Source: Mesotoga infera
GTDB taxonomy: Bacteria; Thermotogota; Thermotogae; Petrotogales; Kosmotogaceae
Reading direction: 5' to 3'
DNA length: 64,000 bases
Assembly (NCBI RefSeq): GCF_900157305.1
Contig: NZ_LS974202.1
Location: 806,001-870,000, forward strand
The notes under the pieces: generated by a model
What the model saw: only the letters and a program-made list of their open reading frames with translations
What the model was told of the DNA's origin: nothing
Database searches by the model: none
Made by a program: the position numbers and the translations under genes
In this document: one piece after another, positions 41,532 through 57,565 of the stretch
Layout: every line of letters begins with the position of its first letter
Position numbering within the stretch: the stretch's first letter is position 1

Positions 41532-41885
41532 GTGCTTACGTGGAACGGTGAGAATTATTACACGACTGCGGAGATAGCGGAGATACTGCACGTTACTCCA
41601 GGAACGGTACGGAGAAAGATGGCTAGCGGAGAACTGAAAGCTATAACGCTTGGAAAGATGCTATACGTCTTAGAAAGCGAGCTAGGCAAAGCTCTAGAGT
41701 GGAAAGATGCGAACTCTAATATCGACATGTATCAAAGGATTCTAGAGCATGCTGCTAGCGTTAAGCAACTGCCCAGCGGTGAATGTATATTCTATAACGA
41801 CGACGGAGAACCGTTGATGCAAGCAAAGATAGCGACTGCAAGCGGAGTGGCGCAAAGCATTGGAGACGATGTAGATGCTGAATAA
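41532..41885 (+). CDS. Helix-turn-helix (HTH_17/excisionase-type) protein, copy 1
   Basis: 117 residues. The N-terminal MerR/excisionase-like helix-turn-helix reads YYTTAEIAEILHVTPGTVRRKMASGELKAITLGKMLYVLESEL. The C-terminal half is unassigned. I use GTG 41532 since GGAG lies eight bases before it; ATG 41514 has no such site. A TACAAT with TGG context (41487-41492) may be the -10. As the first gene of the element it probably controls replication or copy number, or acts in recombination directionality. Confidence 0.75.
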   Translation: MLTWNGENYYTTAEIAEILHVTPGTVRRKMASGELKAITLGKMLYVLESELGKALEWKDANSNIDMYQRILEHAASVKQLPSGECIFYNDDGEPLMQAKIATASGVAQSIGDDVDAE

Positions 41886-41897
41886 GGATGGTGCATT

Positions 41898-42203
41898 ATG
41901 AAAAATGGAACCGTGTGCAACCCGTGGCGAAAAAGCAAAGGACTGCCGGAATTAAATATCGAAAAAGTCTATGCTACGGCTGCGTGGATAATTGGCAAGC
42001 TGACGGACGGAGAGCCGAAAGAGAGAGTATTACAGCTATTATGGCTGCAATACGTGATGGAGATGCTAGCGGAATTGTGTTGCGATACGCAGCTATTAGA
42101 CTTTGAAACTCGATATTCTCTGAATGTTGGCATGAGAGCATTAGAGAAAGCTCTCGACAAAAAAAAGAGCCCGCAATATGGTTATGCAGACTCTCTCATG
42201 TAA
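41898..42203 (+). CDS. Small unknown protein of the element, copy 1
   Basis: 101 residues, probably helical (VYATAAWIIGKLTDGEPKERVLQLLWLQYVMEMLAELC), no recognised family. The ATG has GGATGG nine bases upstream, and the gene starts 12 bases after the helix-turn-helix gene. A hairpin follows. Confidence 0.65.
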   Translation: MKNGTVCNPWRKSKGLPELNIEKVYATAAWIIGKLTDGEPKERVLQLLWLQYVMEMLAELCCDTQLLDFETRYSLNVGMRALEKALDKKKSPQYGYADSLM

Positions 42204-42213
42204 TATGTTGGTT

Positions 42214-42242
42214 GAGCCGTATAGTCGCCATCTATGCGGCTC
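42214..42242 (+). promoter_or_regulatory. Hairpin between the small gene and the ATPase gene
   Basis: GAGCCGTATAG pairs with CTATGCGGCTC (one G-T pair) around seven bases, followed by TTACTC. It lies 36 bases before the ATPase start codon and may attenuate its expression. The same hairpin is at 45340-45368. Confidence 0.55.
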
Positions 42243-42278
42243 TTACTCTCACTAAAAAAGTGAAAGGACGTGTCAGTC

Positions 42279-43601
42279 ATGACAATTATAGCAGATAACT
42301 ACTTTAGTACCAGTAGTAATGAGCGATATCTACTCTGGGCATTGTTGTACGATGCTCAATTCTATGAACTCTTTCCGGACGTGTACCGTTCCGACTTTCA
42401 ACGCTGCGAGATATACGACTTTATGGCGGAGTCTTATCACGCAAAAGCTGACGAGACGGACATTATCAAAGACTTTCGCAAGCGGTTTCCAACGGTGGCG
42501 GAGACGATGGACGGTGAACATCACGAGAGCCTGCCGAGTTATTACAGCTTACTGGACACGGTGCGAAAAGAGAGCAAAGAACTACTGCGGCAAAGACTCG
42601 CAAGTCTCCGAGATCCTGATGACGCTTTCCGAGATCTCGACAATTATAGGAAGAACCAACACGGCATCAAACACGCTGGAATTAAGTATCTATCAGCGAT
42701 GGAGCTAATGGAGAAAGTATTTGAGCCGATAAAGTGGTGCGTTCCAGGACTCATACCGGACGGACTCATAATGCTTGCTGGAAAGCCGAAAGTCGGCAAG
42801 TCGTGGCTTGCTTTGCATCTTTGCCATGCAGTGGCTTTCGGTGGCTACGCCTTCGGCAGTATAGATGTTCCACGTGGAAAAGCTCTTTACTACGGACTAG
42901 AGGACTCCGAAAGACGGCTCAAAGAGAGACTCAAAGCTATATCGTGTGAATTGCCAGTGCCGGACGGACTGTATCTGAGTACAAAATTATCCAGGCTGGA
43001 TGATGGCGGACTTGACGAGATCTCGACATGGCTTGACGATAACGCAGACGCACGGCTAGTGGTAATCGACACACTTGCGAGAGTCAAGCCGAAAGCCAGA
43101 CGGAGTAATGATGCTTACGAGAACGACACCGAGATAATGAGCGGCCTGCAAGAGTTGGCCATGAGATACGGCATAACGGTGTTGGTAGTGCATCATATGC
43201 GGAAGAACACGAGAGACTCTGATGACGTGTTCGATGGAGTACTCGGAAGTACCGGACTTACTGGGACTGCCGATGCCACGTTGCTTTTGCAACGTGGACG
43301 GCAGACCAAAGAGATAGTCATGAGCATCACCGGACGAGATGTAGATGAGCAAGAGTTATCAATAGCTTTCTCTCTAGCTGATAGAGTACCGTTCAGACTA
43401 CTCGGAAGTACGGATGAGATACATATGAGCGATACACGCAAAGAGATACTAGAGTATCTCCAGGAGAACGGAAAGACTACACCGAAAGAGCTAGCAACGG
43501 CTCTAGGAAAGAATTACAGCACAACTAAAACCATGCTGCAAAGGATGCTAGCGGACGGAGTGGTGAGCAATAACAATGGCAAGTATGAAATATATACCTG
43601 A
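42279..43601 (+). CDS. DnaB/RepA-like replicative ATPase of the element, copy 1
   Basis: 440 residues. The first 90 resemble the helical N-terminal domain of DnaB (ERYLLWALLYDAQFYELFPDVY). Residues about 140-360 form a RecA-like core: Walker A LAGKPKVGKSWLALHL near 168, Walker B ARLVVIDTLARVKP near 258, and VLVVHHMRKN, GVLGSTGLTGTAD motifs. A C-terminal winged helix follows (TPKELATALGKNYSTTKTMLQRMLADGVV). This AAA_25/RepA-type protein is usual for plasmid or phage replication. ATG 42279 is preferred because AAAGGAC lies 10 bases before it. Confidence 0.85.
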   Translation: MTIIADNYFSTSSNERYLLWALLYDAQFYELFPDVYRSDFQRCEIYDFMAESYHAKADETDIIKDFRKRFPTVAETMDGEHHESLPSYYSLLDTVRKESKELLRQRLASLRDPDDAFRDLDNYRKNQHGIKHAGIKYLSAMELMEKVFEPIKWCVPGLIPDGLIMLAGKPKVGKSWLALHLCHAVAFGGYAFGSIDVPRGKALYYGLEDSERRLKERLKAISCELPVPDGLYLSTKLSRLDDGGLDEISTWLDDNADARLVVIDTLARVKPKARRSNDAYENDTEIMSGLQELAMRYGITVLVVHHMRKNTRDSDDVFDGVLGSTGLTGTADATLLLQRGRQTKEIVMSITGRDVDEQELSIAFSLADRVPFRLLGSTDEIHMSDTRKEILEYLQENGKTTPKELATALGKNYSTTKTMLQRMLADGVVSNNNGKYEIYT

Positions 43602-43614
43602 ATATATATAAAAG

Positions 43615-43868
43615 TTGTAGTCTTTGTAGTCTTTGTAGTCCGTGTAGTCTTTGTAGTCTTTGTAGTCCCAGACTACAGGAGACTACAGCGAGACTACAGC
43701 GACTCTTTTTGTAGTCTCTCTATAAGCTGCTATTATAGACGGTTATAGAGAGTGAGACTACAGAGACTACAGAGACTACAGAGTCTACACTATTTGAATT
43801 TTTAGATGCTTTTCGGTACTTTTTCGGACTACGCAGAGACTACGCAGAGACTACACCGGACTATGCGG
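43615..43868 (+). repeat. Iteron array, copy 1 (putative replication origin)
   Basis: Six direct 9-bp repeats of the TTTGTAGTC type run without gaps from 43615, then three GACTAC units, one more GTAGTC, and two further groups of three GACTAC units spaced 9 or 11 bp. Altogether 7 GTAGTC and 9 GACTAC cores lie within 250 bp, right behind the ATPase gene. This is the expected place and structure of a plasmid origin bound by an initiator. Confidence 0.8.
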
Positions 43869-43873
43869 ATATG

Positions 43874-43898
43874 GTATCCGTACTAGTAATACGGATAC
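43874..43898 (+). other. Perfect hairpin downstream of the iterons, copy 1
   Basis: GTATCCGTA and TACGGATAC form 9-bp arms around CTAGTAA. It ends the iteron region and could be part of the origin or a priming structure. Copy 2 is at 47000-47024. Confidence 0.6.
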
Positions 43899-44148
43899 AA
43901 AGCTTATTTACAGTCTAGTAATATTCAAGCTGCTATCTGCTGCTAATGAGCTATACAGAGAAAGCCCACGATCTCCATTATGGGGATTATTTAGTCTTCC
44001 GGAAGAAAGACAGAATTTTGATGAGCAAATCGAGTAAGGAAATAATCAATTGAACTATTCTCATCGATCGCAATCTTCCTTTTCATCAGATGTATTAAAA
44101 ATAACAAGGAGAATTTGGTCACTCTGACATTTATCATTTTTGTCCAAA

Positions 44149-44367
44149 ATGCTAGACGAGATCTCCGCCACCGGAGAAGACAGAGCCGTGAAAAGTAATT
44201 CTTTTTTATCTGCTTTCGCTCAATGTTGCCAGTCTTTGAACTGCAGGGCGGAACGTTCAAAGTCAAAGACGGCAACAATAGCGGACTATCTTCGAGATCT
44301 CGACTTTTTAAGAGTTCAAAGACGTGGCGTTATCCTTGCCAGGATGCCCCAGGATGAGACTTTATGA
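44149..44367 (+). CDS. Doubtful small ORF in the element tail, copy 1
   Basis: 72 codons beginning LDEISATGEDRAVKSN, overlapping a structured region with repeated TCAAAGAC motifs. No good ribosome site, no family. It may not be a gene; an identical frame is at 47275-47493. Confidence 0.2.
   Translation: MLDEISATGEDRAVKSNSFLSAFAQCCQSLNCRAERSKSKTATIADYLRDLDFLRVQRRGVILARMPQDETL
44224..44277 (+). other. Structured inverted-repeat region of the element tail, copy 1
   Basis: CTTTGAAC (44234-44241) can pair with GTTCAAAG (44255-44262), and TGTTGCC (44224-44230) with GGCAACA (44271-44277). An alternative stem uses GTCTTTGA with TCAAAGAC (44263-44270). A further GTTCAAAGAC lies near 44314. This may be a regulatory RNA or a single-strand origin. 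Copy 2 is at 47350-47403. Confidence 0.5.
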
Positions 44368-44557
44368 CTCGATAAGTAGAATTGCACTACTGCCACACCG
44401 AAAATGCAATACGGAGCATCCTGCGATGCCATCTACAAGCTGCTATGGATGAGACTTATAGAGACTAACAGAGAGAGAAAGAGCATAATATATGCAGTAA
44501 CTTGATGCTTTCTGTAAGTGGCTTTAAATGCCATACATAAGCAAAAGAGTGCATTAT

Positions 44558-44585
44558 ATGAGTCATAATTGTTATTATGAATCAT
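44558..44585 (+). other. Dif-like recombination site at the junction of the two copies
   Basis: The left arm ATGAGTCATAA and right arm TTATGAATCAT are inverse to one another at 10 of 11 positions and enclose a 6-bp centre, TTGTTA. The inner CATAA and TTATG match those of Xer/dif sites. This is the complete element-borne site (attP); the outer junctions each keep only one of these arms. Confidence 0.8.
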
Positions 44586-44657
44586 TTTCACTCACTATGT
44601 CAAAAAGCATGGTACAATGCATTTGCACTTACATAAAATATGAAAGGAGTGAGCAAA

Positions 44658-45011
44658 GTGCTTACGTGGAACGGTGAGAATTATTACACGACTGCGGAGA
44701 TAGCGGAGATACTGCACGTTACTCCAGGAACGGTACGGAGAAAGATGGCTAGCGGAGAACTGAAAGCTATAACGCTTGGAAAGATGCTATACGTCTTAGA
44801 AAGCGAGCTAGGCAAAGCTCTAGAGTGGAAAGATGCGAACTCTAATATCGACATGTATCAAAGGATTCTAGAGCATGCTGCTAGCGTTAAGCAACTGCCC
44901 AGCGGTGAATGTATATTCTATAACGACGACGGAGAACCGTTGATGCAAGCAAAGATAGCGACTGCAAGCGGAGTGGCGCAAAGCATTGGAGACGATGTAG
45001 ATGCTGAATAA
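44658..45011 (+). CDS. Helix-turn-helix (HTH_17/excisionase-type) protein, copy 2
   Basis: Identical product to 41532-41885. Start and ribosome site are the same. Its promoter region includes part of the dif-like junction, so expression may differ slightly from copy 1, which lies behind the mbx promoter. Confidence 0.75.
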   Translation: MLTWNGENYYTTAEIAEILHVTPGTVRRKMASGELKAITLGKMLYVLESELGKALEWKDANSNIDMYQRILEHAASVKQLPSGECIFYNDDGEPLMQAKIATASGVAQSIGDDVDAE

Positions 45012-45023
45012 GGATGGTGCATT

Positions 45024-45329
45024 ATGAAAAATGGAACCGTGTGCAACCCGTGGCGAAAAAGCAAAGGACTGCCGGAATTAAATATCGAAAAAGTCTATGC
45101 TACGGCTGCGTGGATAATTGGCAAGCTGACGGACGGAGAGCCGAAAGAGAGAGTATTACAGCTATTATGGCTGCAATACGTGATGGAGATGCTAGCGGAA
45201 TTGTGTTGCGATACGCAGCTATTAGACTTTGAAACTCGATATTCTCTGAATGTTGGCATGAGAGCATTAGAGAAAGCTCTCGACAAAAAAAAGAGCCCGC
45301 AATATGGTTATGCAGACTCTCTCATGTAA
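45024..45329 (+). CDS. Small unknown protein of the element, copy 2
   Basis: Identical product to 41898-42203. Confidence 0.65.
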   Translation: MKNGTVCNPWRKSKGLPELNIEKVYATAAWIIGKLTDGEPKERVLQLLWLQYVMEMLAELCCDTQLLDFETRYSLNVGMRALEKALDKKKSPQYGYADSLM

Positions 45330-45404
45330 TATGTTGGTTGAGCCGTATAGTCGCCATCTATGCGGCTCTTACTCTCACTAAAAAAGTGAAAGGACGTGTC
45401 AGTC

Positions 45405-46727
45405 ATGACAATTATAGCAGATAACTACTTTAGTACCAGTAGTAATGAGCGATATCTACTCTGGGCATTGTTGTACGATGCTCAATTCTATGAACTCTTT
45501 CCGGACGTGTACCGTTCCGACTTTCAACGCTGCGAGATATACGACTTTATGGCGGAGTCTTATCACGCAAAAGCTGACGAGACGGACATTATCAAAGACT
45601 TTCGCAAGCGGTTTCCAACGGTGGCGGAGACGATGGACGGTGAACATCACGAGAGCCTGCCGAGTTATTACAGCTTACTGGACACGGTGCGAAAAGAGAG
45701 CAAAGAACTACTGCGGCAAAGACTCGCAAGTCTCCGAGATCCTGATGACGCTTTCCGAGATCTCGACAATTATAGGAAGAACCAACACGGCATCAAACAC
45801 GCTGGAATTAAGTATCTATCAGCGATGGAGCTAATGGAGAAAGTATTTGAGCCGATAAAGTGGTGCGTTCCAGGACTCATACCGGACGGACTCATAATGC
45901 TTGCTGGAAAGCCGAAAGTCGGCAAGTCGTGGCTTGCTTTGCATCTTTGCCATGCAGTGGCTTTCGGTGGCTACGCCTTCGGCAGTATAGATGTTCCACG
46001 TGGAAAAGCTCTTTACTACGGACTAGAGGACTCCGAAAGACGGCTCAAAGAGAGACTCAAAGCTATATCGTGTGAATTGCCAGTGCCGGACGGACTGTAT
46101 CTGAGTACAAAATTATCCAGGCTGGATGATGGCGGACTTGACGAGATCTCGACATGGCTTGACGATAACGCAGACGCACGGCTAGTGGTAATCGACACAC
46201 TTGCGAGAGTCAAGCCGAAAGCCAGACGGAGTAATGATGCTTACGAGAACGACACCGAGATAATGAGCGGCCTGCAAGAGTTGGCCATGAGATACGGCAT
46301 AACGGTGTTGGTAGTGCATCATATGCGGAAGAACACGAGAGACTCTGATGACGTGTTCGATGGAGTACTCGGAAGTACCGGACTTACTGGGACTGCCGAT
46401 GCCACGTTGCTTTTGCAACGTGGACGGCAGACCAAAGAGATAGTCATGAGCATCACCGGACGAGATGTAGATGAGCAAGAGTTATCAATAGCTTTCTCTC
46501 TAGCTGATAGAGTACCGTTCAGACTACTCGGAAGTACGGATGAGATACATATGAGCGATACACGCAAAGAGATACTAGAGTATCTCCAGGAGAACGGAAA
46601 GACTACACCGAAAGAGCTAGCAACGGCTCTAGGAAAGAATTACAGCACAACTAAAACCATGCTGCAAAGGATGCTAGCGGACGGAGTGGTGAGCAATAAC
46701 AATGGCAAGTATGAAATATATACCTGA
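45405..46727 (+). CDS. DnaB/RepA-like replicative ATPase of the element, copy 2
   Basis: Identical product to 42279-43601, with the same Walker motifs and winged helix. Two intact copies in the chromosome mean that both units could still fire their origins. Confidence 0.85.
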   Translation: MTIIADNYFSTSSNERYLLWALLYDAQFYELFPDVYRSDFQRCEIYDFMAESYHAKADETDIIKDFRKRFPTVAETMDGEHHESLPSYYSLLDTVRKESKELLRQRLASLRDPDDAFRDLDNYRKNQHGIKHAGIKYLSAMELMEKVFEPIKWCVPGLIPDGLIMLAGKPKVGKSWLALHLCHAVAFGGYAFGSIDVPRGKALYYGLEDSERRLKERLKAISCELPVPDGLYLSTKLSRLDDGGLDEISTWLDDNADARLVVIDTLARVKPKARRSNDAYENDTEIMSGLQELAMRYGITVLVVHHMRKNTRDSDDVFDGVLGSTGLTGTADATLLLQRGRQTKEIVMSITGRDVDEQELSIAFSLADRVPFRLLGSTDEIHMSDTRKEILEYLQENGKTTPKELATALGKNYSTTKTMLQRMLADGVVSNNNGKYEIYT

Positions 46728-46740
46728 ATATATATAAAAG

Positions 46741-46994
46741 TTGTAGTCTTTGTAGTCTTTGTAGTCCGTGTAGTCTTTGTAGTCTTTGTAGTCCCAGACT
46801 ACAGGAGACTACAGCGAGACTACAGCGACTCTTTTTGTAGTCTCTCTATAAGCTGCTATTATAGACGGTTATAGAGAGTGAGACTACAGAGACTACAGAG
46901 ACTACAGAGTCTACACTATTTGAATTTTTAGATGCTTTTCGGTACTTTTTCGGACTACGCAGAGACTACGCAGAGACTACACCGGACTATGCGG
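46741..46994 (+). repeat. Iteron array, copy 2
   Basis: Identical to 43615-43868: six abutting GTAGTC repeats followed by GACTAC groups. Confidence 0.8.
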
Positions 46995-47683
46995 ATATGG
47001 TATCCGTACTAGTAATACGGATACAAAGCTTATTTACAGTCTAGTAATATTCAAGCTGCTATCTGCTGCTAATGAGCTATACAGAGAAAGCCCACGATCT
47101 CCATTATGGGGATTATTTAGTCTTCCGGAAGAAAGACAGAATTTTGATGAGCAAATCGAGTAAGGAAATAATCAATTGAACTATTCTCATCGATCGCAAT
47201 CTTCCTTTTCATCAGATGTATTAAAAATAACAAGGAGAATTTGGTCACTCTGACATTTATCATTTTTGTCCAAAATGCTAGACGAGATCTCCGCCACCGG
47301 AGAAGACAGAGCCGTGAAAAGTAATTCTTTTTTATCTGCTTTCGCTCAATGTTGCCAGTCTTTGAACTGCAGGGCGGAACGTTCAAAGTCAAAGACGGCA
47401 ACAATAGCGGACTATCTTCGAGATCTCGACTTTTTAAGAGTTCAAAGACGTGGCGTTATCCTTGCCAGGATGCCCCAGGATGAGACTTTATGACTCGATA
47501 AGTAGAATTGCACTACTGCCACACCGAAAATGCAATACGGAGCATCCTGCGATGCCATCTACAAGCTGCTATGGATGAGACTTATAGAGACTAACAGAGA
47601 GAGAAAGAGCATAATATATGCAGTAACTTGATGCTTTCTGTAAGTGGCTTTAAATGCCATACATAAGCAAAAGAGTGCATTAT

Positions 47684-47711
47684 ATGAGTCATAATTGTTA
47701 TTATGAAAGCT
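47684..47711 (+). other. Right attachment junction (element/host)
   Basis: The left arm is the element's ATGAGTCATAA, the centre TTGTTA, and the right arm is host TTATGAAAGCT. The 13-bp core is 47695-47707. Host arms on left and right together give the reconstructed empty site, in which only the right arm is dif-like. Confidence 0.8.
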
Positions 47712-47806
47712 CCGGACGTCGCTATAACCGAAGCTTCAGTGGGAGCCGGACTAACTACCGCCATCTTTCTTCTGTCTTTGAGAAAGCTTAAGAGAGATGA
47801 TGTCGA

Positions 47807-48565
47807 ATGAAAAGGATTATCGCCGGGATCATCGCTCTTCTCTTCTTCTTCACAGTGAGTATCGTACTCAATACCGATTCACAGACCGTTTCGGGAGTAC
47901 CACGGTACGGAGAGTTTGATCTATCGGAAAGAAACTCTCATAGTTACGTTACTAAATCTGTAAACGATACTTTGAAAGAAGTGAAGTTCGGTTCAACCAT
48001 CGATGCTGAAACCGGTTCGGCCAACTTCGTCACTTCGATCGTCGTTAATTACAGGTCCTTCGATACGCTTGGCGAAGTTACGGTTTTGTTCCTCTCGGCA
48101 ACAGGCGTTGGTCTTCTACTGGGTGGAGACAAAAAGCGTCTTCTAAGTCCAATCAAAGCCAGCCCAGTCGTAAAAACAGCGGCCAAAATCGTTTCTCCTC
48201 TCCTGCTGATACTCGGGGCTTATGTTTTCACACACGGTCATTTAACTCCCGGTGGCGGGTTCCCGGGTGGCGCGATTATAGCAGCTGCCTTTCTGCTTCT
48301 TGTGATGGTCGATGATGAGAAACGTGCTCCGGCTTTGCTAAAAGTCCTGGAAGGTTCTATGGGACTAGCTTATATTTTGCTGGGAATCGGGGGTCTGTTG
48401 ATTTCCGGTTCGTTTCTGCAGAACTTTCTCCCGACCGGGGTTGTCGGAAATCTTTTCAGCGCCGGTCTGATCCCAATCGTCTATTCTCTTATAGGATTGA
48501 AAGTTGGGGCAGAGCTTTCAGGAATTGTGGACGATTTCGTTTCGGAAGGGGGCGATAATATATGA
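47807..48565 (+). CDS. Fused MbxE-MbxF (MrpB-like) subunit
   Basis: 252 residues. The first 110 match MbhE/MbxE-like subunits (a signal-like helix, then VVNYRSFDTLGEVTVLFLSATGVGLLL). The second half is MrpB/MbhF-like (GHLTPGGGFPGGAIIAAAFLLLVM, with later membrane helices). The two are separate genes in archaeal mbx/mbh operons, so this is a fusion. The start overlaps the mbxD stop and the end overlaps the next start by four bases. Confidence 0.85.
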   Translation: MKRIIAGIIALLFFFTVSIVLNTDSQTVSGVPRYGEFDLSERNSHSYVTKSVNDTLKEVKFGSTIDAETGSANFVTSIVVNYRSFDTLGEVTVLFLSATGVGLLLGGDKKRLLSPIKASPVVKTAAKIVSPLLLILGAYVFTHGHLTPGGGFPGGAIIAAAFLLLVMVDDEKRAPALLKVLEGSMGLAYILLGIGGLLISGSFLQNFLPTGVVGNLFSAGLIPIVYSLIGLKVGAELSGIVDDFVSEGGDNI

Positions 48566-48912
48566 TCCAGTACTTCTCTTTGTTGTTGACGGCCATAGGT
48601 ATCTACGGCCTCCTTTCGCAGAAGAATCTTGTGAAGCTGATAGTATCTCTGAATATCGCCGAGATAGGTGTAAATCTCTTTATAGTCTCGATAGGCTATA
48701 TAGAAAAAGGGTTAGTCCCTATACTTTCATCTGAGAACAATTCATCGACGCTGCTCTTTGTCGACCCTCTTCCTCAGGCACTCGTTCTGACATCCATAGT
48801 GATCGGCGTGGGTATTACTGCTCTGGCACTTGCAATAATAGTTACTATAAACCATTCTAAGGGAACGATAGATATCGATGAACTGATAGAACGAGGAGGT
48901 GCTGAAGAATGA
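48562..48912 (+). CDS. mbxG: MrpC/NuoK-like subunit
   Basis: 116 residues, three membrane helices. Signature KNLVKLIVSLNIAEIGVNLFIVSIG near the start and DPLPQALVLTSIVIGVGITALALAI identify the MrpC/NuoK family. Overlaps both neighbours by four bases. Confidence 0.9.
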   Translation: MIQYFSLLLTAIGIYGLLSQKNLVKLIVSLNIAEIGVNLFIVSIGYIEKGLVPILSSENNSSTLLFVDPLPQALVLTSIVIGVGITALALAIIVTINHSKGTIDIDELIERGGAEE

Positions 48913-50351
48913 ATCCCGTCTGGCTCATAGCCGTACCTTTAGCACTGGCTTTTATCAGCACTTTCGCAAATAGGATATCGAACTGGCTGCTTTTTCTTTC
49001 GGCTATCTTCAATGCAGTTGCGGGCGTCTTTCTCTCTTTTTCTTCGGGCACCGTGAGCTACTCTATCGGTGGCTGGAGAAGCCCTTTCGGCATCGATCTG
49101 ATCGTGACAGACGCGACGAGAATACTCCTTCCTGTGGCAAATATCCTTTTCTTTTTCGCAGTTATCATACACTTAAGTAAGAAGAGGGCTTTGGAAAAGT
49201 TTTCGGTCGTCTATACGATTTCGTTAGCCTCGCTGAACGGAATTCTCCTCACAAACGATCTCTTCAATCTCTTTGTTTTTCTCGAAATCGCAGGGGTCGC
49301 CGCCTACCTATTAGCCATGACGGGCAAGGAAGGAGAGAGTAAGGTCGCCGCTTTCAAGTATCTATTGCTCGGTTCAGTAGGTTCGCTGCTGTATCTTCTC
49401 GGAGTTGCCGTGCTTTATGCCGCTGCGGGGACTCTCAACATCTCAGCGATAGCTACAAAGGTTTCAGATGGTCTGTTGAACGGCGATGTTATGCTCGTAT
49501 CTTCTTTGCTGATGATAGCGGGCCTGGGAGTTGAGTCGAAGTTGGTACCTTTCAACGGCTGGGTACCGGGGGTTTTTACGAAATCATCGAATATGGCCAC
49601 TCTGGTTCTCGCTTCAGTTTATCCTGTCGCCATGATCTCAACCTTCAGCAGGGTCATATTGGCGGTGGGGGACCGGCGTGCTCTAGATCTGGTAATCGTT
49701 CTGGGTGTTGCGACGGTTCTAATCGGAGAAGTTATTGCCTTCAAACAAAGGAATTTGAGATCAACACTCGCCTATTCGAGCATTGCTCAATCGGGTCTTG
49801 CAATCTTCCTGGTCGGTATAGGAACTGTCGAGGCGTTGACTGCAAGCGTTATGTTGATCATAAATAATGCCCTCGCCAAATTCGTTCTCTTCTCGGTGGA
49901 CAGCTACACTACCGAAGAACTGGGTGCAGATGACCTGGAAAGCCTTTACGGCCTGGGAAAGGTGGCGCCCGTTGCCGGGTTGATTTTTACAGTATCGGCT
50001 CTTTCGATATCGGGAATGCCCCTCTTTTTGGGGTTCAGAGCGAAGCTTCTTGCGATCTCCTCAAGCTTCGAGTCGTTGCTCGTAGTTCCGATCGTGATTT
50101 TGCTGGCCGCGGCGATAGAGATAACTTACTACTTCAGGTGGATTTTCGCCCTTTATAGACCTTATAAAGGAGAGGAGAGGGCAAGGCTTTCTCTTCCGCT
50201 GGAGTTAATGGCGATAGGCGTTGTTCTTGCAGCGATTCTCGTGTTTCTGGGATCAAGCTCACATGAGACTTTGATGGCGTTCAGCAAAGCGGGCAACGCT
50301 ATGGTCGATGCGATCATCACACTGGGAAAAAACCTGATTGGAGGGGTATAA
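48909..50351 (+). CDS. mbxH: MrpD/NuoN-like antiporter subunit (first of two)
   Basis: 480 residues, about 14 membrane helices. Typical Proton_antipo_M features: NDLFNLFVFLEIAGVAAYLLAM with the key glutamate, FKYLLLGSVGSLLYLLGV, and the lysine in SKLVPFNGWVPGVFTKSSN. It is one of two consecutive antiporter-like subunits; this doubling separates Mbx/MBS from Mbh hydrogenases. Confidence 0.92.
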   Translation: MNPVWLIAVPLALAFISTFANRISNWLLFLSAIFNAVAGVFLSFSSGTVSYSIGGWRSPFGIDLIVTDATRILLPVANILFFFAVIIHLSKKRALEKFSVVYTISLASLNGILLTNDLFNLFVFLEIAGVAAYLLAMTGKEGESKVAAFKYLLLGSVGSLLYLLGVAVLYAAAGTLNISAIATKVSDGLLNGDVMLVSSLLMIAGLGVESKLVPFNGWVPGVFTKSSNMATLVLASVYPVAMISTFSRVILAVGDRRALDLVIVLGVATVLIGEVIAFKQRNLRSTLAYSSIAQSGLAIFLVGIGTVEALTASVMLIINNALAKFVLFSVDSYTTEELGADDLESLYGLGKVAPVAGLIFTVSALSISGMPLFLGFRAKLLAISSSFESLLVVPIVILLAAAIEITYYFRWIFALYRPYKGEERARLSLPLELMAIGVVLAAILVFLGSSSHETLMAFSKAGNAMVDAIITLGKNLIGGV

Positions 50352-52184
50352 ATGAGCATCCTGACCCTACTGGTGGCTTCGTTGTTGGCTACACCGATCT
50401 TATACCTTATAGCGAAGTTCAATACAAAGATCGCTTACGGAGCTTATGCTGTGCTTCAGGTCTTTTCGTTCATTTACGTTTTTTTCACCGGAAGAAGTAA
50501 CGTTTCGTACGAAGTGATCGGAATAACCGAGAGGCTGAATTTTAACTTCGGCATCACTCCAACCAACTGGTTTTTTGCCTCTATCGTGCTACTCATTATA
50601 TCCATGAGTGCAATCTTCATGTTTCCGCTAAAGAAAAGTCCGGTGAAGATTTTCCTGCTCGGTCTTGTCTCGGCCGGCACACTTGGAGCGGTTTTTTCAC
50701 AAGATTTCCTCACATTAATGATCTTCTGGGAGATTTCGACATGGGCTTCACTCATCCTGATAATTCAGGACAAGGAGAAATCGCTGAAAGAGGCTATAAA
50801 ATACGTCGCAATAGCTTCGATAGGTACTTATTCGATGCTTTTTGCGATCTTTTATATGCTCGATAAATTAGGTTCGATAGAATTCTCAACCGTTGCCGCT
50901 AGAATCGGAGGCGCGACTGCTGAGGTACAATTGGTTATCTTGATTTCCCTGGGCGTGATGGTTCTGGCAAAGATGGGAGTCTTTCCACTGCACATCTGGC
51001 TCAGAGGTTCTCACTCTTCGGCTCCTGATGAATTTAGCCCCATACTCTCTGGTGCGCTCACCAAGATAGGTGCTTTTTTGCTGTTCATTATCACCTCGGC
51101 CTTGCCGTCTTTCATGATTTTCAGCAAGCTTCCCGTTTTCAACGGAATACCCGTAGTGAATTATGCTTTCGCCCTCCTGGGAGGGATATCCATTGTAGTG
51201 GGAACGGTTATGGCAATAAGGATGGAGGATGCAAAGGAACTGATAGCCTTTTCAACCGTAAGCAATTCCGGTTATATAGTGATGGCACTCTCGATCGGGG
51301 GCACATACGCCACAGCAGGAGGCTTGATGCATGTTCTCAATCATGCCATGGCCTCGGCCGCTATGTTCATGGCTATAGCCGCCGTAGCTTATAGAACTGG
51401 TACAACGAAAATGCACGAAATGGGTGGTCTGATACTCAAAATGCCTGTAACCTTTGCCACCTACCTGGTGGCAATAATCTCTATAGCGGGGATTCCACCG
51501 ACCAGCGGTTTCGTATCAAAGTGGCTCATATACCAGCAGCTCGTACAGAACGGCCTTCCCTTCCTGGCCTTTGCAGCCTTCTTTGGAAGTATAGGTTCGT
51601 TCATGTACGTCTTCAAACCATTGGCCGGGATCTTTCTAGGTCAATTGAAGCCCCGGCACAGAAATTTAAAGGAAGTACCGTTCGTGATGGTTGTCCCGAT
51701 GACAATCCTTACACTGTTGACTGTTTTCTGGGGAATACTGCCCAGTAACGCCATTAAGACTATTAACGCCGTTACGGCTTCGGTCGGAATCAACGCGGTA
51801 GAGGTTACCTTTTCCAGGATCGTAGCGCTCACTGGCGAATGGGATTCGATATTGGTTACGACCGTTTTCGCTATTGGGTTTTTCATATCACTCTTCATAT
51901 TCATGAGGGCGAAGAAAGCCAGGCAGGTAGATCTGATGGACAACTATACTGCAGGAGATTTTCTGTACACGAGCGAGTTATACCATTTCTCGTACAGGAT
52001 GTACAGACCCTTCGACAGGTTGTTCGAAAAATGGCCGTCAATGGAGGACTGGCTTTCTTCTCTATCGGATAAAATCAAGGAACTGGGAGCGTTGCTGAAA
52101 GCGATCTTTTATCCGGCCAATCCGCAACTGTACATAGGTCTCGCGATAGTCGCCATTATCGGGACCTTCTGGTGGTTGAGGTGA
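50352..52184 (+). CDS. mbxH': NuoL/MrpA-like antiporter subunit (second of two)
   Basis: 610 residues, about 14-16 membrane helices with an extended C-terminus. Key region DFLTLMIFWEISTWASLILI with the conserved glutamate; KMGVFPLHIWLRGSHSSAPDEFSPILSGALTKIGAFL with conserved lysines and histidine. The C-terminal part (about 480-610) includes a long amphipathic helix and a final membrane helix, as in the second antiporter-like subunit of Mbx. It begins one base after the mbxH stop. Confidence 0.92.
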   Translation: MSILTLLVASLLATPILYLIAKFNTKIAYGAYAVLQVFSFIYVFFTGRSNVSYEVIGITERLNFNFGITPTNWFFASIVLLIISMSAIFMFPLKKSPVKIFLLGLVSAGTLGAVFSQDFLTLMIFWEISTWASLILIIQDKEKSLKEAIKYVAIASIGTYSMLFAIFYMLDKLGSIEFSTVAARIGGATAEVQLVILISLGVMVLAKMGVFPLHIWLRGSHSSAPDEFSPILSGALTKIGAFLLFIITSALPSFMIFSKLPVFNGIPVVNYAFALLGGISIVVGTVMAIRMEDAKELIAFSTVSNSGYIVMALSIGGTYATAGGLMHVLNHAMASAAMFMAIAAVAYRTGTTKMHEMGGLILKMPVTFATYLVAIISIAGIPPTSGFVSKWLIYQQLVQNGLPFLAFAAFFGSIGSFMYVFKPLAGIFLGQLKPRHRNLKEVPFVMVVPMTILTLLTVFWGILPSNAIKTINAVTASVGINAVEVTFSRIVALTGEWDSILVTTVFAIGFFISLFIFMRAKKARQVDLMDNYTAGDFLYTSELYHFSYRMYRPFDRLFEKWPSMEDWLSSLSDKIKELGALLKAIFYPANPQLYIGLAIVAIIGTFWWLR

Positions 52185-52189
52185 TCGGT

Positions 52190-53092
52190 ATGATTATAAC
52201 TATTCTATCTGCAATCGCATTACTCATATTGGCCTTCGCCTATACTGTAACTCTCGAAGGAATCGCGAGGAAGATCGAGGCTAGAATACATAGAAGATGC
52301 GGTCCTCCATTCTGGCAGAACTTCATAGATATCTTCAAGAGTCTTACAAAACATTCGATCTCTCACGGTTTCATATTTGATTTTGGAGTCCTTATGGCTT
52401 TGGGTGGCACAATAGCCACCGTACTTTTCATACCAGCAGGAAATCTCGTCGTCTTCCCAGGTCTTGACAACGTCTTCGTTATTATCTATCTGCTGGCTAT
52501 AGGTCTACTGGGAATGGCGATGTCGGCAGTAGGCTCGGGAAATCCCAACGCCTCAATCGGGATAGGCAGGGCATTAACACAGATGCTGGGATACGAGCTC
52601 CCCTTCATGATAGTGTTGTTGGGTGTCTTCTTCCATTTCAGAACCTCATCCCTATCTGAGCTGGCAATGCTGCAGAACTCCGGAGGAACCTACAATGTCT
52701 TAATCATGCCTATCGGGGCAGTTGTTGGCTTCGTATCTCTGATGGGCATGCTTGGCAAGAAGCCTTTCGATACATTTATTGCACCTGCCGAGATAGCTTC
52801 CGGGCCACTTGTAGAGTACAGCGGGAAGTACCTGGGATTGCTCATGACCCAACACGCTTTCGGGACCTTTATAGAGATTGGGCTTTTCGTCAACCTCTTT
52901 CTGGGTGGCGGAAAGACTATATGGGAATTTCTTTTGAAGTTCTTCCTGGTTTACTTTCTTGCTGTTATCATCTCGTCCATTATGCCGCGTTTCAGGGTCG
53001 AACAGGCAGTCAAATTCTACTGGAAATGGCCACTCATACTATCCTTCATTCAAGTGGTTATTGTCGTTTTCATAATGGGGAGGCGAGTTTAA
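52190..53092 (+). CDS. mbxM: NuoH-like membrane anchor of the Mbx complex
   Basis: 300 residues, about eight membrane helices. Signatures VTLEGIARKIEARIHRRCGPPFWQNFIDIFKSLTKH and KKPFDTFIAPAEIASGPLVEYSGKYLGLL match the NuoH/EchB/MbhM family, which docks the peripheral arm and forms part of the ion path. ATG 52190 has GAGGTGAT upstream; a GTG at 52172 would add six residues. Confidence 0.92.
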   Translation: MIITILSAIALLILAFAYTVTLEGIARKIEARIHRRCGPPFWQNFIDIFKSLTKHSISHGFIFDFGVLMALGGTIATVLFIPAGNLVVFPGLDNVFVIIYLLAIGLLGMAMSAVGSGNPNASIGIGRALTQMLGYELPFMIVLLGVFFHFRTSSLSELAMLQNSGGTYNVLIMPIGAVVGFVSLMGMLGKKPFDTFIAPAEIASGPLVEYSGKYLGLLMTQHAFGTFIEIGLFVNLFLGGGKTIWEFLLKFFLVYFLAVIISSIMPRFRVEQAVKFYWKWPLILSFIQVVIVVFIMGRRV

Positions 53093-53631
53093 TGAACAAC
53101 GAGCAGACCGCGTGGGAAAGAGTGGCAAATATGCTAAGGGCAAGATCGCTTTGGATGCTTTATTACTGTACCGGTTGCGGTGCAATAGAACTACCACCGA
53201 CAATGACAGCTCGCTTCGATATGGAGAGGTTTGGTATAGGACCGATGGCGACACCGCGTCAGGCCGATATACTCCTCGTAACGGGATACCTCAGCACCAA
53301 AACCCTGCGCAGAGTCATCTACTCCTACGAGCAGATGCAGGCTCCAAAATACATAGTCGGGTTCGGTTCCTGCACCATCAACGGCGGCATCTACTATGAC
53401 TCTTACGCGACGATCAACAGGCTCGATCTTTACGTACCTGTAGATCTATATTTGGCTGGCTGTATGCCCAGACCAGAGGCAATTGTAAATGGTTTTAAAA
53501 ATTTGATGGATAAAATCGACCGAGGAGAGGCGACGGGTTGGAAGGATTACGAAGCGAACTACGAATGGTACAGAAAAAATCAAATAGATGCTCTCGGGGA
53601 GGTGTACATCCACGATGAGTTCCATGAATGA
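53092..53631 (+). CDS. mbxJ: NuoB-like iron-sulfur subunit
   Basis: 179 residues. Cysteines of the N2-type 4Fe-4S cluster are in LYYCTGCGAIELPP, GFGSCTINGG and LAGCMPRPEAI. The ATG overlaps the mbxM stop. It would pass electrons between MbxN and MbxL. Confidence 0.93.
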   Translation: MNNEQTAWERVANMLRARSLWMLYYCTGCGAIELPPTMTARFDMERFGIGPMATPRQADILLVTGYLSTKTLRRVIYSYEQMQAPKYIVGFGSCTINGGIYYDSYATINRLDLYVPVDLYLAGCMPRPEAIVNGFKNLMDKIDRGEATGWKDYEANYEWYRKNQIDALGEVYIHDEFHE

Positions 53632-54130
53632 TAAATTGAATGAAATTATGTCGATGGCGGGCCAATTCACCTTTTCGGAGATAACTAAGAGACAATTTTC
53701 TGTAAATATAAAATCCTCTGGATTGCTGTCCGTTCTGGGACTACTCAGGCAGAAAGGTTTCACGCACCTCTCGCTTATCACAGGTATAGATAGGTTGAAC
53801 GATGAAAAATTCGAAGTAGTATACACACTATTCTGTTGGGAGAGCGGAGAGACAATTCTTGTGAGTACCCTTGTAGACAGAAAAACACCCGTTCTCCCGA
53901 CGATCATGGAGATATGGCCGGTTGCCAGGTTCTACGAAAGGGATGTTCATGAATTCTTCGGTATTGTTTTCGATGGCAACCCTGACCTGAAGCCGTTGAT
54001 ACTGGAAAAATGGAGCGAGATACCGCCTATGAGAAAGGACTTCGACCCCCATAAATACTCTAAGGAGCATTTTCCGGATAGAAAGTACAGCGCTGATTTT
54101 TTGCCGGAAGGGGGTGGCGAAGATGAGTAA
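53615..54130 (+). CDS. mbxK: NuoC-like subunit
   Basis: 171 residues. The NuoC signature is IMEIWPVARFYERDVHEFFGIVFDGNPDLKPLILEKW, ending with a short acidic tail. It overlaps mbxJ and mbxL. ATG 53615 has GGGGAGGTG about ten bases before it; ATG 53624 is possible. Confidence 0.9.
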   Translation: MSSMNDKLNEIMSMAGQFTFSEITKRQFSVNIKSSGLLSVLGLLRQKGFTHLSLITGIDRLNDEKFEVVYTLFCWESGETILVSTLVDRKTPVLPTIMEIWPVARFYERDVHEFFGIVFDGNPDLKPLILEKWSEIPPMRKDFDPHKYSKEHFPDRKYSADFLPEGGGEDE

Positions 54131-55229
54131 GGAAGTAAAGCTCTTTATCGGACCTAACCATCCTGGAATGCATGGAAACGCCAGCGTCCATCTCTATGTA
54201 GAAGGCGATACAGTGGTAAAATCCAGGTTAGTACCAGGATTCCTGCACAGAGGTTTTGAAAAGCTCATGGAACGAAGGACCTGGATGCAAAACCTCGCAT
54301 TGATTCCCCGAATTTGCGTTCCTGAACCGGATATAAACGAGATGGTGTACGCGATGGCGATAGAAGCGCTCGCTAAAGTCGAAGTGCCCGAACGGGCGCA
54401 CTGGATTAGGATGTTGATCTTGGAACTTGCCAGAATAGCCTCACATCTCATGGCCCTTGGTGGTATCGGAGGCTCTACGGGTCTTTACACAATGCCGAAC
54501 TGGACCCTTGCCGATAGAGATCTCATCCTGGATATATTCGAAAAGATCACCGGTGCAAGAATATATCACATGTATATTGTGCCGGGTGGTGTCAGGAAGG
54601 ATTTGCCTGAAGGCATAAAGGCAGACATACTAAAACTGGTCGATTACATCGAAGGCAGAAGTGAAGAGTTCGAAAACCTGCTCCTGAAAAACAGGATAAT
54701 TAGAACCAGAACGAAAGGTCTGGGTGTGTTGACACGGGAAGATGCACTGAAGCTAGGTATAAGCGGAGTAGCCCTGAGGGCTACCGGCCTACCTAACGAT
54801 CTGAGAAAGATCGCCCCTTATGCTAGATACGACCACGTGCAGTTCGAAGTACCGACAGCAACGGAGGGGGATGCCTTCGCGAGGTTTACCCTTAAGTACT
54901 ATGAAATAGGACAGAGCTTGAGGATATTGAGACAGATCGTTGAGAAGATTCCGGACGGACCGGTAAACATTAGAATCAGCGAAGGGAGCGCTTTAAGATG
55001 GAAAGTCCCTGCCGGCAGCGTTTATGCTCACGTGGAATCTTCCAGAGGAGAATACGGCTACTTCGTAGTTTCCGATGGAAGCGAGAGACCTTATAGAATA
55101 AACGTAAGGGGTGCCTCCTTCCCGCAGGGACTCTACGGTATTGAAAAGCTGCTTCCGGGTACAAGAATTGAAGATGTTGCTCTCTGGCTGGCAACTATGG
55201 ACTTTTGTCCGCCCGAAATCGATCGATAG
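54123..55229 (+). CDS. mbxL: NuoD-like large subunit of the Mbx complex
   Basis: 368 residues, homologous to NuoD and [NiFe]-hydrogenase large subunits (GPNHPGMHGNASVHLYVEGDTV, RGFEKLMERRTW, RMLILELARIASHL). In hydrogenases two CxxC pairs bind nickel. Here the first is CVPE (in RICVPEPDI) and the second is CPPE (in MDFCPPEIDR at the end): the second cysteine of each pair is glutamate. The protein is therefore not a hydrogenase and fits the Mbx/MBS group. ATG 54123 is one choice; GTG 54114 is another. Confidence 0.9.
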   Translation: MSKEVKLFIGPNHPGMHGNASVHLYVEGDTVVKSRLVPGFLHRGFEKLMERRTWMQNLALIPRICVPEPDINEMVYAMAIEALAKVEVPERAHWIRMLILELARIASHLMALGGIGGSTGLYTMPNWTLADRDLILDIFEKITGARIYHMYIVPGGVRKDLPEGIKADILKLVDYIEGRSEEFENLLLKNRIIRTRTKGLGVLTREDALKLGISGVALRATGLPNDLRKIAPYARYDHVQFEVPTATEGDAFARFTLKYYEIGQSLRILRQIVEKIPDGPVNIRISEGSALRWKVPAGSVYAHVESSRGEYGYFVVSDGSERPYRINVRGASFPQGLYGIEKLLPGTRIEDVALWLATMDFCPPEIDR

Positions 55230-55241
55230 GAGGCTGGTAGT

Positions 55242-57071
55242 GTGAGCATATATGATGGGTTAAAAAAGACTTTCTGGGGTCCAACAATAGCCTGGAAGAG
55301 GCTCTTCACCAGACCGGTTACCATAAAAGTTCCAGAAGTCTACCGTGAAGCGGCAGAAAGGTACAGGGGATTTCACGTAAACGACTGGGATAAATGCTCG
55401 GGTTGTTCCACCTGTTCGAAGATCTGTCCGACCGACGCAATAAGGATGGTGCCTGTCGATATCACTGTAGAATCGGGAAAAAAAGCACAGAGACCGGCCA
55501 TAGATTACGGTCGCTGCTCCTTCTGCGCCATGTGTGTCGATATATGCACCACTGGCTCTTTAAATATGACCAGGGAGTACATACATATATCCGACGATCC
55601 CGGCACTTTCTTCTTTTTGCCGGACGAGACCGGTATACACCACGATATTCAACCGATAGGTTATTCTCGCGACGAAGACTCTGAACTTCTCGATCTGGAA
55701 AGAGTTGTGATGAAAGAGCTTCCCGGAGAGGAACGCGTTGACTCCTTTATTGAGTTCGTGAAGGGTTATTCGAGAGAACAAGCCATAGCGGAAGCATCCA
55801 GATGCGTTGATTGCGAGCTATGCGTAGAGGCCTGCCCCGTTAACATGGACATTCCCCGATACATAGAGAGTGTATTCCATGATGACACGGAGGAAGGAGT
55901 CAACTGGATTTACAAAACCAACCCGCTTCCATCAGTTTGTGGAAGAGTATGTACCCACAAATGCGAAACTGTATGCTCGATTGGTAATAGAGGAAAACCT
56001 CTTGCGATAAGGTGGCTGAAACGTTACATCATGGATCAGGAGAAAACTGAAGACGTGATACGTTATGCTTTGAACGGAGAGGTAGTGAAGAAGGTTCGCG
56101 GGAAAGTAGCCATAATAGGTGCGGGCCCTGCCGGACTTTCGGCCGCTTACTATCTTTCACTGATGGGATACTCTACGACCATATTCGAAAGCAAAGCCCT
56201 TGCCGGAGGAGTTATGAGGTACGGAATACCGAGATATAGACTGCCTGACGAAGCCCTGGATAAAGACATAGAAGTAATAGAGTCGCTCGGGGTTGAAATC
56301 AAGTGTCTCACTACCGTCGGGAAGGATGTAACTTTGGAGGAAATACGCGACGAATACGATGCGGTTTTCCTGGGAACCGGATTCTCTAAGGGTAGGAGTA
56401 CCGGTGTCAAAGGGGTAGATAGTGAAGGGGTAATCATGGCGATACCTCTTCTAGAAAAGATTCGCGACTACCTAAGGCAAGAAAGTGGAGAGAAGCCACC
56501 AGTAACCGATAGCGTTATCGTTATAGGCGGTGGTAACGTCGCGATGGATGCAGCCAGAAGCGTAGCCCGCATACAGAAAATGGAAAGGAATCACATCGAT
56601 GTGAAGGTGACATCGCTAGAGTCAATGGAAGAGATGCCGGCCGACCTGGAAGAGATTCTCGAAGGTAAGGAAGAAGGCATAAAATACTTTCCATCTCGTG
56701 GACCAAAAGAAGTTTTGTTGAAAGATGGAAAGATCTGCGGATTAAAAACTATAGCTTGTACAAGAGTCTTTGACGACGACGGTAGATTCAATCCGCAATT
56801 CGATGAATCAGATCTCTCGACCATAGAGGGCACGATGATTATTGAAGCGATTGGTCAAGCACCAGATTATGACTTTATTCCTGTCGAAATAAAGGAAGAG
56901 ATTCAATTCATAAGGGGCAGAATTCTTGTTAACGAAAAGGGACAGACTGCTTTACCGTGGTTATTTGCTGGAGGAGATATAGTGAACGGACCGGATATAA
57001 TTCATGGCGTTGCCGACGGTCATAGAGCTGCGATAGGTATCGATGAATTCTTGGCGGGGGTGAAGAAGTGA
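55242..57071 (+). CDS. MbxN-type ferredoxin subunit fused to an NfnB/GltD-like flavoprotein
   Basis: 609 residues. Residues about 45-110 hold two 4Fe-4S motifs, CSGCSTCSKICP and CSFCAMCVDIC, as in MbxN/NuoI. From about residue 185 a second unit follows: CVDCELCVEACP with CGRVCTHKCETVC (two more clusters), the FAD site IIGAGPAGLSAAYYL, the NAD(P) site VIVIGGGNVAMDAARSV, and the GDIVNGPDIIHGVADGHRAAIGI end motif of GltD/NfnB/SudB. The fusion would carry electrons directly between the membrane complex and NAD(P). It starts with GTG after TAGGAGG, 12 bases behind mbxL. Confidence 0.9.
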   Translation: MSIYDGLKKTFWGPTIAWKRLFTRPVTIKVPEVYREAAERYRGFHVNDWDKCSGCSTCSKICPTDAIRMVPVDITVESGKKAQRPAIDYGRCSFCAMCVDICTTGSLNMTREYIHISDDPGTFFFLPDETGIHHDIQPIGYSRDEDSELLDLERVVMKELPGEERVDSFIEFVKGYSREQAIAEASRCVDCELCVEACPVNMDIPRYIESVFHDDTEEGVNWIYKTNPLPSVCGRVCTHKCETVCSIGNRGKPLAIRWLKRYIMDQEKTEDVIRYALNGEVVKKVRGKVAIIGAGPAGLSAAYYLSLMGYSTTIFESKALAGGVMRYGIPRYRLPDEALDKDIEVIESLGVEIKCLTTVGKDVTLEEIRDEYDAVFLGTGFSKGRSTGVKGVDSEGVIMAIPLLEKIRDYLRQESGEKPPVTDSVIVIGGGNVAMDAARSVARIQKMERNHIDVKVTSLESMEEMPADLEEILEGKEEGIKYFPSRGPKEVLLKDGKICGLKTIACTRVFDDDGRFNPQFDESDLSTIEGTMIIEAIGQAPDYDFIPVEIKEEIQFIRGRILVNEKGQTALPWLFAGGDIVNGPDIIHGVADGHRAAIGIDEFLAGVKK

Positions 57072-57565
57072 GTGATTTGAAAAAAATTCTGGAACTTGCC
57101 CTTAGTTTTGAGAGATCAGGGCAGGAGTTTTACAAAAGCAACATGGAGAAAGTTAAGCAAGCACTGGCAAGGGAAACCTTTAAGTATCTGATGGATATGG
57201 AATCCTCACATGTGGAATTTATAAGGAAAATGATCGAAAAACTCAAGACCGATGAGACCATAAATATCGAAGCAACCGGGGAAAAGGACGAAATCTTCAA
57301 AGAACGTCTGAAGTCACAGGCTCTTTCCAGTAACACCTACAGCAACGATTTGGCCGATCTTTCGATACTGAGAATGGCTTACCTTATAGAGAAAGACTTC
57401 GTGGAGTATTACGGCAAGGCCTCGGAAAAGATAGAAGATGACCGGGCCAAGAAACTGCTGACAACTCTAAGAGTTTGGGAAGAGGGACACATGGAATTGT
57501 TGAAAAGACTTATGGAACGTATCTATGAAAAAAACGCGCTGGATCTGGGCTTCTACCCGTTTTAA
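57068..57565 (+). CDS. Ferritin-like (rubrerythrin-type) diiron protein
   Basis: 165 residues. Two helix pairs with iron ligands: LSFERSGQEFYKS, MDMESSHVEFIRK, LIEKDFVEYYGK and VWEEGHMELLKR, the E-ExxH pattern of the ferritin-like superfamily. There is no rubredoxin domain. The start overlaps the preceding gene by four bases, so it belongs to the Mbx operon. It may protect the iron-sulfur clusters against oxygen or peroxide. This is inference. Confidence 0.85.
   Translation: MSDLKKILELALSFERSGQEFYKSNMEKVKQALARETFKYLMDMESSHVEFIRKMIEKLKTDETINIEATGEKDEIFKERLKSQALSSNTYSNDLADLSILRMAYLIEKDFVEYYGKASEKIEDDRAKKLLTTLRVWEEGHMELLKRLMERIYEKNALDLGFYPF

Follow-up and report, generated by a model that had tools for sequence, protein, structure and literature searches.

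Why should the electron-entry subunit of a membrane complex run on into a module that binds a flavin and a nicotinamide dinucleotide? The question is raised by the mbx operon of Mesotoga infera (Thermotogota; assembly GCF_900157305.1), whose genome comprises 2.97 Mb in one contig (NZ_LS974202.1). We analysed a stretch of 64,000 nucleotides of this contig (positions 806,001 to 870,000 of the forward strand; hereafter the window), in which the operon spans 40122-57565 and its fused gene lies at 55242-57071; coordinates are window positions, and all features described are on the + strand. The initial annotation had taken the fusion to make the complex a direct, ion-pumping ferredoxin:NAD(P) oxidoreductase and an alternative to Rnf. 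We instead favour, with a probability of about 0.58, an NAD(H)-linked, ion-translocating sulfane (polysulfide) oxidoreductase in which the fused module serves as an NAD(H) port, a reading that builds on the observed architecture, conservation, synteny and motifs. Papers are cited by PMC number for those portions of their text that were accessible.

The fusion of MbxN to a GltD/NfnB-like module is confirmed. The gene is a single unbroken open reading frame of 609 amino acids with a GTG start, along which Pfam places a Fer4 dicluster domain (residues 48-105), Fer4_20 (166-270) and Pyr_redox_2 (288-588). Among solved structures, the top relative of the MbxN part (residues 8-114) is MbsN of the Pyrococcus furiosus sulfane reductase MBS (6u8y_N, E 3e-29), and residues about 150-606 match the large subunits of Nfn and Xfn as well as NfnA/StnC. 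The MbxN domain holds two cluster motifs, with cysteines 52/55/58/62 (55395..55427) and 92/95/98/102 (55515..55547), and is joined by a linker of about 50 residues (115-165; 55584..55736) to the GltD-like module. The latter contributes cysteines 188/191/194/198 (55803..55835) and 233/237/241/245 (55938..55976), a lysine at the site of the NfnB glutamate ligand (Lys260; 56019..56021), an FAD Rossmann motif, VAIIGAGPAGLSAAYYLS (including GAGPAG; 56106..56159), an NAD(P) Rossmann motif, GGGNVAMD (56526..56549), and SLE where the motif for the NADPH 2'-phosphate, YRR, would stand (56613..56621). These 16 cluster cysteines, in four groups, are invariant in 69/69 Thermotogota fusions and are kept in a wider set of 119 rows, except that one row is gapped at positions 52 and 55. 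Motifs, Pfam domains and conserved cysteines thus bear out the proposal that one protein behind MbxL carries four clusters, FAD and a dinucleotide site. In an AlphaFold2 model of the monomer (40 sequences; mean pLDDT 89.5, pTM 0.85), residues 148-606 superpose on the P. furiosus Nfn large subunit with Z 46.3 and a root-mean-square deviation of 1.9 A over 443 residues, and Nfn large subunits are the best structural relatives of the C-terminal module. The whole architecture already has a family model, NF010590 (PRK13984), which the window protein matches with 992.1 bits over residues 7-606 (cut-off 946) and which NCBIfam labels 'putative oxidoreductase'.

To establish how regularly the two parts occur together, we surveyed 103 Thermotogota genomes, counting an MbxL as of this kind at 383 bits or more. 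Such an MbxL was found in 70 genomes, and in 69 of these the fusion lies in one frame at the same locus, tens of bases 3' of MbxL in that part of the genomes for which coordinates were compared; none of the 103 genomes has a full-length fusion without such an MbxL. Since 68 other Thermotogota genomes share the fused frame, the junction is not a sequencing accident, and a frameshift artefact is likewise ruled out. Separate MbxN and flavoprotein genes, which would have spoken against a fused subunit, occur in none of the 70. The sole exception (G017) retains a 164-amino-acid MbxN and a remnant of the C-terminal end of the module, and also has genes for NfnA and NfnB; this deletion is either a natural loss or an assembly error. 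Its remnants lie at L061:14000-14494 and 14548-14778, with the GltD-like module mostly deleted. The NF010590 cut-off was passed in 55 of the 103 genomes and also by a control Thermotoga maritima genome; five genomes of other phyla all fell below it (0/5), yet all five gave near full-length matches.

Compared across other phyla, the fusion is not unusual. We scanned named genomes for the best 80 of 344 relatives, ranked by similarity to the fusion; chosen in this way, the 80 loci give no estimate of frequency. Judged by record title or taxonomy, they represent at least 15 phyla, including Cloacimonadota, Spirochaetota, Bacteroidota, Bacillota, Pseudomonadota, Acidobacteriota and Myxococcota, although some phylum names are titles of metagenome-assembled genomes and possibly misbinned (L125 and L126 are near-identical but titled Sulfurovum and Saprospiraceae). 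Many of the Pseudomonadota loci come from sulfur-oxidising groups. A fusion specific to Thermotogota is therefore ruled out. Over loci L061-L180 the fusion is in one frame in 118/120 and mostly directly behind MbxL. At two loci (L119 and L142) it has no adjoining mbx genes, MbxJ being elsewhere in the genome; L140 begins at a contig end. In Halanaerobium saccharolyticum WC1, a lone fusion gene (L166:4783-5961) stands behind a Mutator-type transposase in a genome without MbxJ, and the conspecific L112 has the operon.

A second sample was drawn by MbxJ only, without selecting for the fusion. It covered the Halanaerobium class (7 MbxJ places in 59 genomes, 6 loci taken), Cloacimonadota (22 in 59 genomes, 20 taken) and the Rectinema class of Spirochaetota (25 in 98 genomes, 20 taken); the genomes with MbxJ numbered 7, 20 and 20, respectively. 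After five loci that end too early were dropped (L191, L203, L207, L216 and L225), with the cut L209 counted as fused because it holds both domains, the fusion was found in 39 of 41 informative loci. The other two, both from Spirochaetia (L220 and L221), encode MbxN proteins of 147 and 141 amino acids; the next gene is MrpE-like, and a flavoprotein gene is absent, so a fusion universal in bacterial MBS is ruled out. The module is thus present in the majority of such bacterial complexes but is missing from some.

The catalytic subunits point to what such a complex may reduce. In P. furiosus MBS, polysulfide is reduced at an MbsJ cluster held by three cysteines, C28, C93 and C123; compared with the hydrogenase MBH, the MbsJ loop lacks three residues, which leaves only three Cys ligands, and MBS can dispense with C25 of MbsJ and with the two cysteines that remain in MbsL (PMC7684303). 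The window MbxJ (NuoB/MbsJ-like; 53095..53631) aligns with MbsJ (6u8y_J) without gaps around CTGC, and its only cysteines, 25, 28, 93 and 123, carry the MbsJ numbering, giving it both the loop length and the C28/C93/C123 set of MBS. Across 91 MbxJ rows from many phyla, Cys is found at 28 in 88, at 93 in 91 and at 123 in 90, with the loop length unchanged in 88; position 25 is Cys in just 56 and otherwise usually Gly. MbxL (NuoD/MbsL-like; 54114..55229) has MbsL (6u8y_L) as its top match (E 1e-104) and carries CxxE at both former [NiFe] ligand sites (RICVPE and FCPPE; residues 68-71 and 365-368), confirming the reported loss of these ligands: two of the four [NiFe] cysteines are gone, as in MBS. 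The second residue of each former CxxC pair is Glu or Asp at both sites in 111/111 MbxL rows, and the two remaining cysteines vary (Cys in 93/111 and 86/111). Conserved positions 28, 93 and 123 next to a variable position 25 and variable MbxL cysteines are what one would expect if catalysis takes place at the three-cysteine cluster in all these complexes. By sequence, the remainder of the operon also looks like the archaeal sulfane reductase, with two Proton_antipo_M proteins in the positions of H and H' and Mrp-like genes encoding MnhB and Oxidored_q2 proteins.

The same residue patterns indicate that the complex is not a hydrogenase, nor a quinone reductase of the usual type. A [NiFe] group 4 hydrogenase (MBH/Ech) is ruled out by the absence of the two CxxC motifs from MbxL. 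A complex I-type quinone reductase, with the GltD-like module replacing NuoEFG, is very improbable: MbxJ has CTGC and not the adjacent Cys pair of NuoB, and at the position of the Nqo4 tyrosine Y87 MbxL has Val in 111/111 rows. Neither a cytochrome nor a quinone was found to be required in T. maritima, according to the accessible part of PMC9431562. One residue leans towards quinone, since His20 of the window MbxL (54171-54173) stands at the position of H38 of Nqo4, which belongs to the quinone site of complex I. This His is present in 33/111 rows, the window included, and P. furiosus MbsL is without it.

We then considered which dinucleotide the module would use. YRR is the motif that accommodates the NADP phosphate in NfnB, and kinetics of DsrL indicate that YRR enzymes use NADP(H) and those without YRR use or prefer NAD(H) (PMC7596348). 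The window module has SLE in place of YRR, which argues against NADP as the substrate. Among the 69 Thermotogota fusions, 59 have xLE (SLE/CLE/ALE), nine have YRR and one is truncated, all nine YRR proteins being Mesoaciditoga-type; the corresponding counts for 79 other loci, which include three from Thermotogota (L131, L139 and L157), are 50, 28 and one. In a tree of 109 sequences, built by a quick method with some long branches and including three NfnB (all YRR), one branch parts the xLE from the YRR class (SH-aLRT 99).

A second motif bears on electron bifurcation. Bifurcating NfnB has a Glu ligand at its FAD-proximal cluster; StnC, a GltD-like module that has lost bifurcation, has Lys170 instead (PMC10482914). 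The K170A substitution cuts electron transfer in StnC. Lys260 is invariant in the fusions (69/69 in Thermotogota and 119/119 rows in the wider set), and Glu stands at this position in 10/11 NfnB controls; printed alignments place Lys260 on the Lys of 9n5u and 9bov, and judging by the aligned ranges it would correspond to StnC Lys170. By analogy, the module is probably NAD(H)-specific, preferring NADH over NADPH, and non-bifurcating, and SLE and Lys260 together make it best read as a plain NAD(H) port. It is accordingly very unlikely that the complex is a confurcating or bifurcating enzyme whose module FAD, in the manner of NfnB, splits or merges the electrons of NAD(P)(H), ferredoxin and polysulfide. 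The fold closely matches Nfn large subunits, and in the Mesoaciditoga-type family a second GltD/NfnB-like gene follows the fusion, with NfnA between where read; however, every fusion row has Lys in place of the NfnB Glu ligand, and the open reading frame list of the window operon contains no NfnA gene. The second GltD/NfnB-like gene was seen in G008-G016 (L062-L070), and also in L165 and L168, all YRR-class loci, and the NfnA gene between it and mbx was read in L061; it is as if NADPH-linked complexes were paired with a transhydrogenase.

Taking these observations together with the MBS-type catalytic subunits, we infer the cofactor (NADH over NADPH), non-bifurcation, the substrate, the direction and pumping as follows. 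The fused C-terminal module would act as a two-electron port at which NADH gives a hydride to FAD. Single electrons would then travel by way of the Lys260-type cluster and the one next to it to the two [4Fe-4S] clusters of MbxN, which would lead to the single MbxJ cluster. The latter, with its three cysteine ligands, lies at the head of the MbxJ/L/M chamber; it would reduce polysulfide, and loops of the chamber would drive the antiporter-like subunits. The same wire may still receive electrons from ferredoxin, and the port could also work in reverse. The closest analogue would be complex I with sulfur in quinone's place, and the sulfur setting fits two earlier reports: T. maritima mbxA rises 4.36-fold with sulfur, Mbx being treated there as an MBS homologue (PMC9431562), and Mesotoga oxidises sugars with sulfur as the acceptor (PMC7795431).

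The position of the module is what mainly decides between this scheme and the ferredoxin:NAD(P)+ pump of the initial annotation. A port on MbxN is placed where electrons enter, as NuoEF is in complex I, and a path from NADH to polysulfide would therefore cross the coupling site; ferredoxin and NAD+ would instead meet on the entry subunit, and transfer between them would, from the architecture, bypass the MbxJ/L/M coupling chamber. That chamber keeps the MBS-type sulfane site in MbxJ and MbxL, and the YRR motif is missing. The pump does account for four clusters, FAD and a dinucleotide site within one protein, and Mbx was called a ferredoxin:NADP oxidoreductase in older literature (PMC4596419); we nevertheless regard it as improbable. 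Nor does Mbx take the place of Rnf. An RnfD-family gene occurs in 98 of the 103 Thermotogota genomes and co-occurs with Mbx in 68/70, the window genome included (the two without it are G011 and G097), which rules out Mbx as an Rnf substitute.

The strongest rival to the NAD(H)-linked sulfane oxidoreductase retains ferredoxin as the driver. Here the complex is a ferredoxin-driven sulfane reductase, and the module is a hub that balances the NAD(H) pool through the same wire without pumping, NADH being made when sulfur is short and electrons being taken from NADH when sulfur is plentiful. In P. furiosus, ferredoxin electrons enter MBS through MbsN (PMC7684303), and the MbxN domain is intact in the fusion; related GltD-like modules run both ways (PMC7596348). 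Against this, a leak from ferredoxin to NAD would waste energy conserved by Rnf in the many genomes that have both. We consider such a two-donor hub unlikely.

Several points also weigh against the reading that we prefer. The potential span from NADH to polysulfide is small, and pumping driven by NADH only would be weak; the complex may therefore depend on ferredoxin as well, translocate few ions, or be reversible. The YRR rule derives from DsrL and NfnB, which are other proteins than the fusion, and glutamate synthases named for NADPH may lack YRR. The unfused Spirochaetia loci mark the module as an add-on, the structural model is that of a monomer, and no activity of any fused complex is reported in the literature searched. 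MbxD, intact in MBS, is split in the window genome, an interruption that bears on the strain and not on the kind of complex. Finally, ferredoxin is predicted as the donor in T. maritima, where the NADH-dependent share could fall to a soluble sulfur reductase that uses NAD(P)H (PMC9431562).

In gene order, the operon runs from Mrp-like genes through two antiporter-like subunits to M, J, K, L, the fusion and a rubrerythrin-like gene. MbxA, MbxB and MbxC (Mrp E/F/G-like; 40122..41319) were named from order and between-locus similarity, without a Pfam scan, and the following subunits from Pfam: MbxE/F with MbhE and MnhB domains (47807..48565), the NuoK/MrpC-like MbxG (48562..48912), the first and second antiporter-like subunits MbxH (48909..50351) and MbxH' (50352..52184), the NuoH-like MbxM (52172..53092) and the NuoC-like MbxK (53588..54130). 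The rubrerythrin-like gene (57068..57565) overlaps the end of the fusion. A gene of this type is directly 3' of the fusion in 39 of 101 loci with sufficient downstream sequence, in Thermotogota and several other phyla (for example, L119:7792-8292 and L145:7847-8356).

The split in mbxD separates a 5' fragment (41316..41450) from a 3' fragment (47703..47810) by a 6.25-kb insertion composed of two tandem copies of a 3126-bp mobile element (41440..47691). Each encodes a helix-turn-helix protein and an AAA/DnaB-like ATPase, and the tandem pair are the only copies of the element in the genome. A 13-base repeat, TTGTTATTATGAA, is found at 41443, 44569 and 47695; the repeats look like attachment sites, and an ATG inside the one at 47695 is the start of the downstream mbxD fragment. 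Both parts of mbxD are contiguous in a Mesotoga relative (L079).

Parts of this system are already known, namely MBS, GltD-like modules and the NF010590 architecture, which lacks a named function. P. furiosus MBS (6u8y; formerly Mbx) shares the subunit types, the duplicated antiporter subunits, the two-cluster N domain, the MbxJ cysteine numbering and loop length, and CxxE in MbxL; its MbsN, however, is a separate chain of 208 amino acids (two clusters; PMC7684303), whereas here the N subunit runs on into the FAD/NAD module. The initial statement that archaeal N subunits hold two clusters only thus stands for P. furiosus, the single archaeal case to which it can be applied here. NF010590/PRK13984 is identical in full-length architecture, but the family is named without function or partner. 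NfnB/NfnL and Xfn (5jca, 5jfc, 4ylf and 5vj7) have the fold of the C-terminal module (Z 44-46), but are bifurcating, with a Glu ligand and YRR, in contrast to Lys260, SLE and an operon without NfnA. StnC/NfnA of StnABC and NfnABC (8oh5, 9n5u and 9bov) is a GltD-like, two-electron port to other clusters with the Lys in the same place; unlike the fusion, StnC is joined to a NuoG-like domain, has a HydBC-like bifurcating partner and binds NADPH (PMC10482914). DsrL, the partner of sulfite reductase, combines a GltD-like module with two extra [4Fe-4S] clusters, links NAD(P)H to sulfur chemistry and has NAD and NADP types distinguished by YRR (PMC7596348), but its extra ferredoxin domain is C-terminal and its partner is DsrAB, with no membrane complex. 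The Mrp-Mbx of the Riftia symbiont is likewise annotated as a putative sulfur-reducing Mbx, in a description whose accessible part mentions no flavin module (PMC11636981). Fusion loci from other sulfur-oxidising Gammaproteobacteria are present among the best 80 of 344 relatives.

A literature search that left subscription journals mostly uncovered returned no paper on a fused MbxN by title or abstract, and no statement that bacterial MBS-type complexes carry the module or split into NAD and NADP types. The terms PRK13984, MbxN, NADH-dependent sulfane and NADH polysulfide oxidoreductase did not occur among the literature matches listed. The literature found names no membrane enzyme coupling NADH oxidation to sulfur reduction in these bacteria, and treats bacterial Mbx as a copy of the archaeal ferredoxin-driven MBS. 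Our analysis suggests that the complex is wired to the NADH pool of the cell as well as, or instead of, to ferredoxin. A wider view, which we offer tentatively and consider unlikely, is that the fused Mbx forms a separate and widespread respiratory class, a reversible ion-pumping NAD(H):polysulfide oxidoreductase or 'sulfur complex I'. Fermenting sulfur reducers, among them Thermotogota and Halanaerobium, would use it in the forward direction. In chemosynthetic sulfur oxidisers (Sedimenticola, Thiodiazotropha and tubeworm symbionts) it would work in reverse, the ion gradient allowing NADH to be formed straight from reduced sulfur and the quinone pool being bypassed; one YRR/xLE switch would divide NADPH-linked from NADH-linked branches. 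Should an NAD(H) module be part of most MBS-type complexes in bacteria, this would alter the energy models of T. maritima, Mesotoga, Halanaerobium and numerous uncultured lineages, and would make a complex-I-like enzyme with sulfur in place of quinone directly testable. The two motifs, SLE/YRR and Lys260, yield clear mutational predictions.

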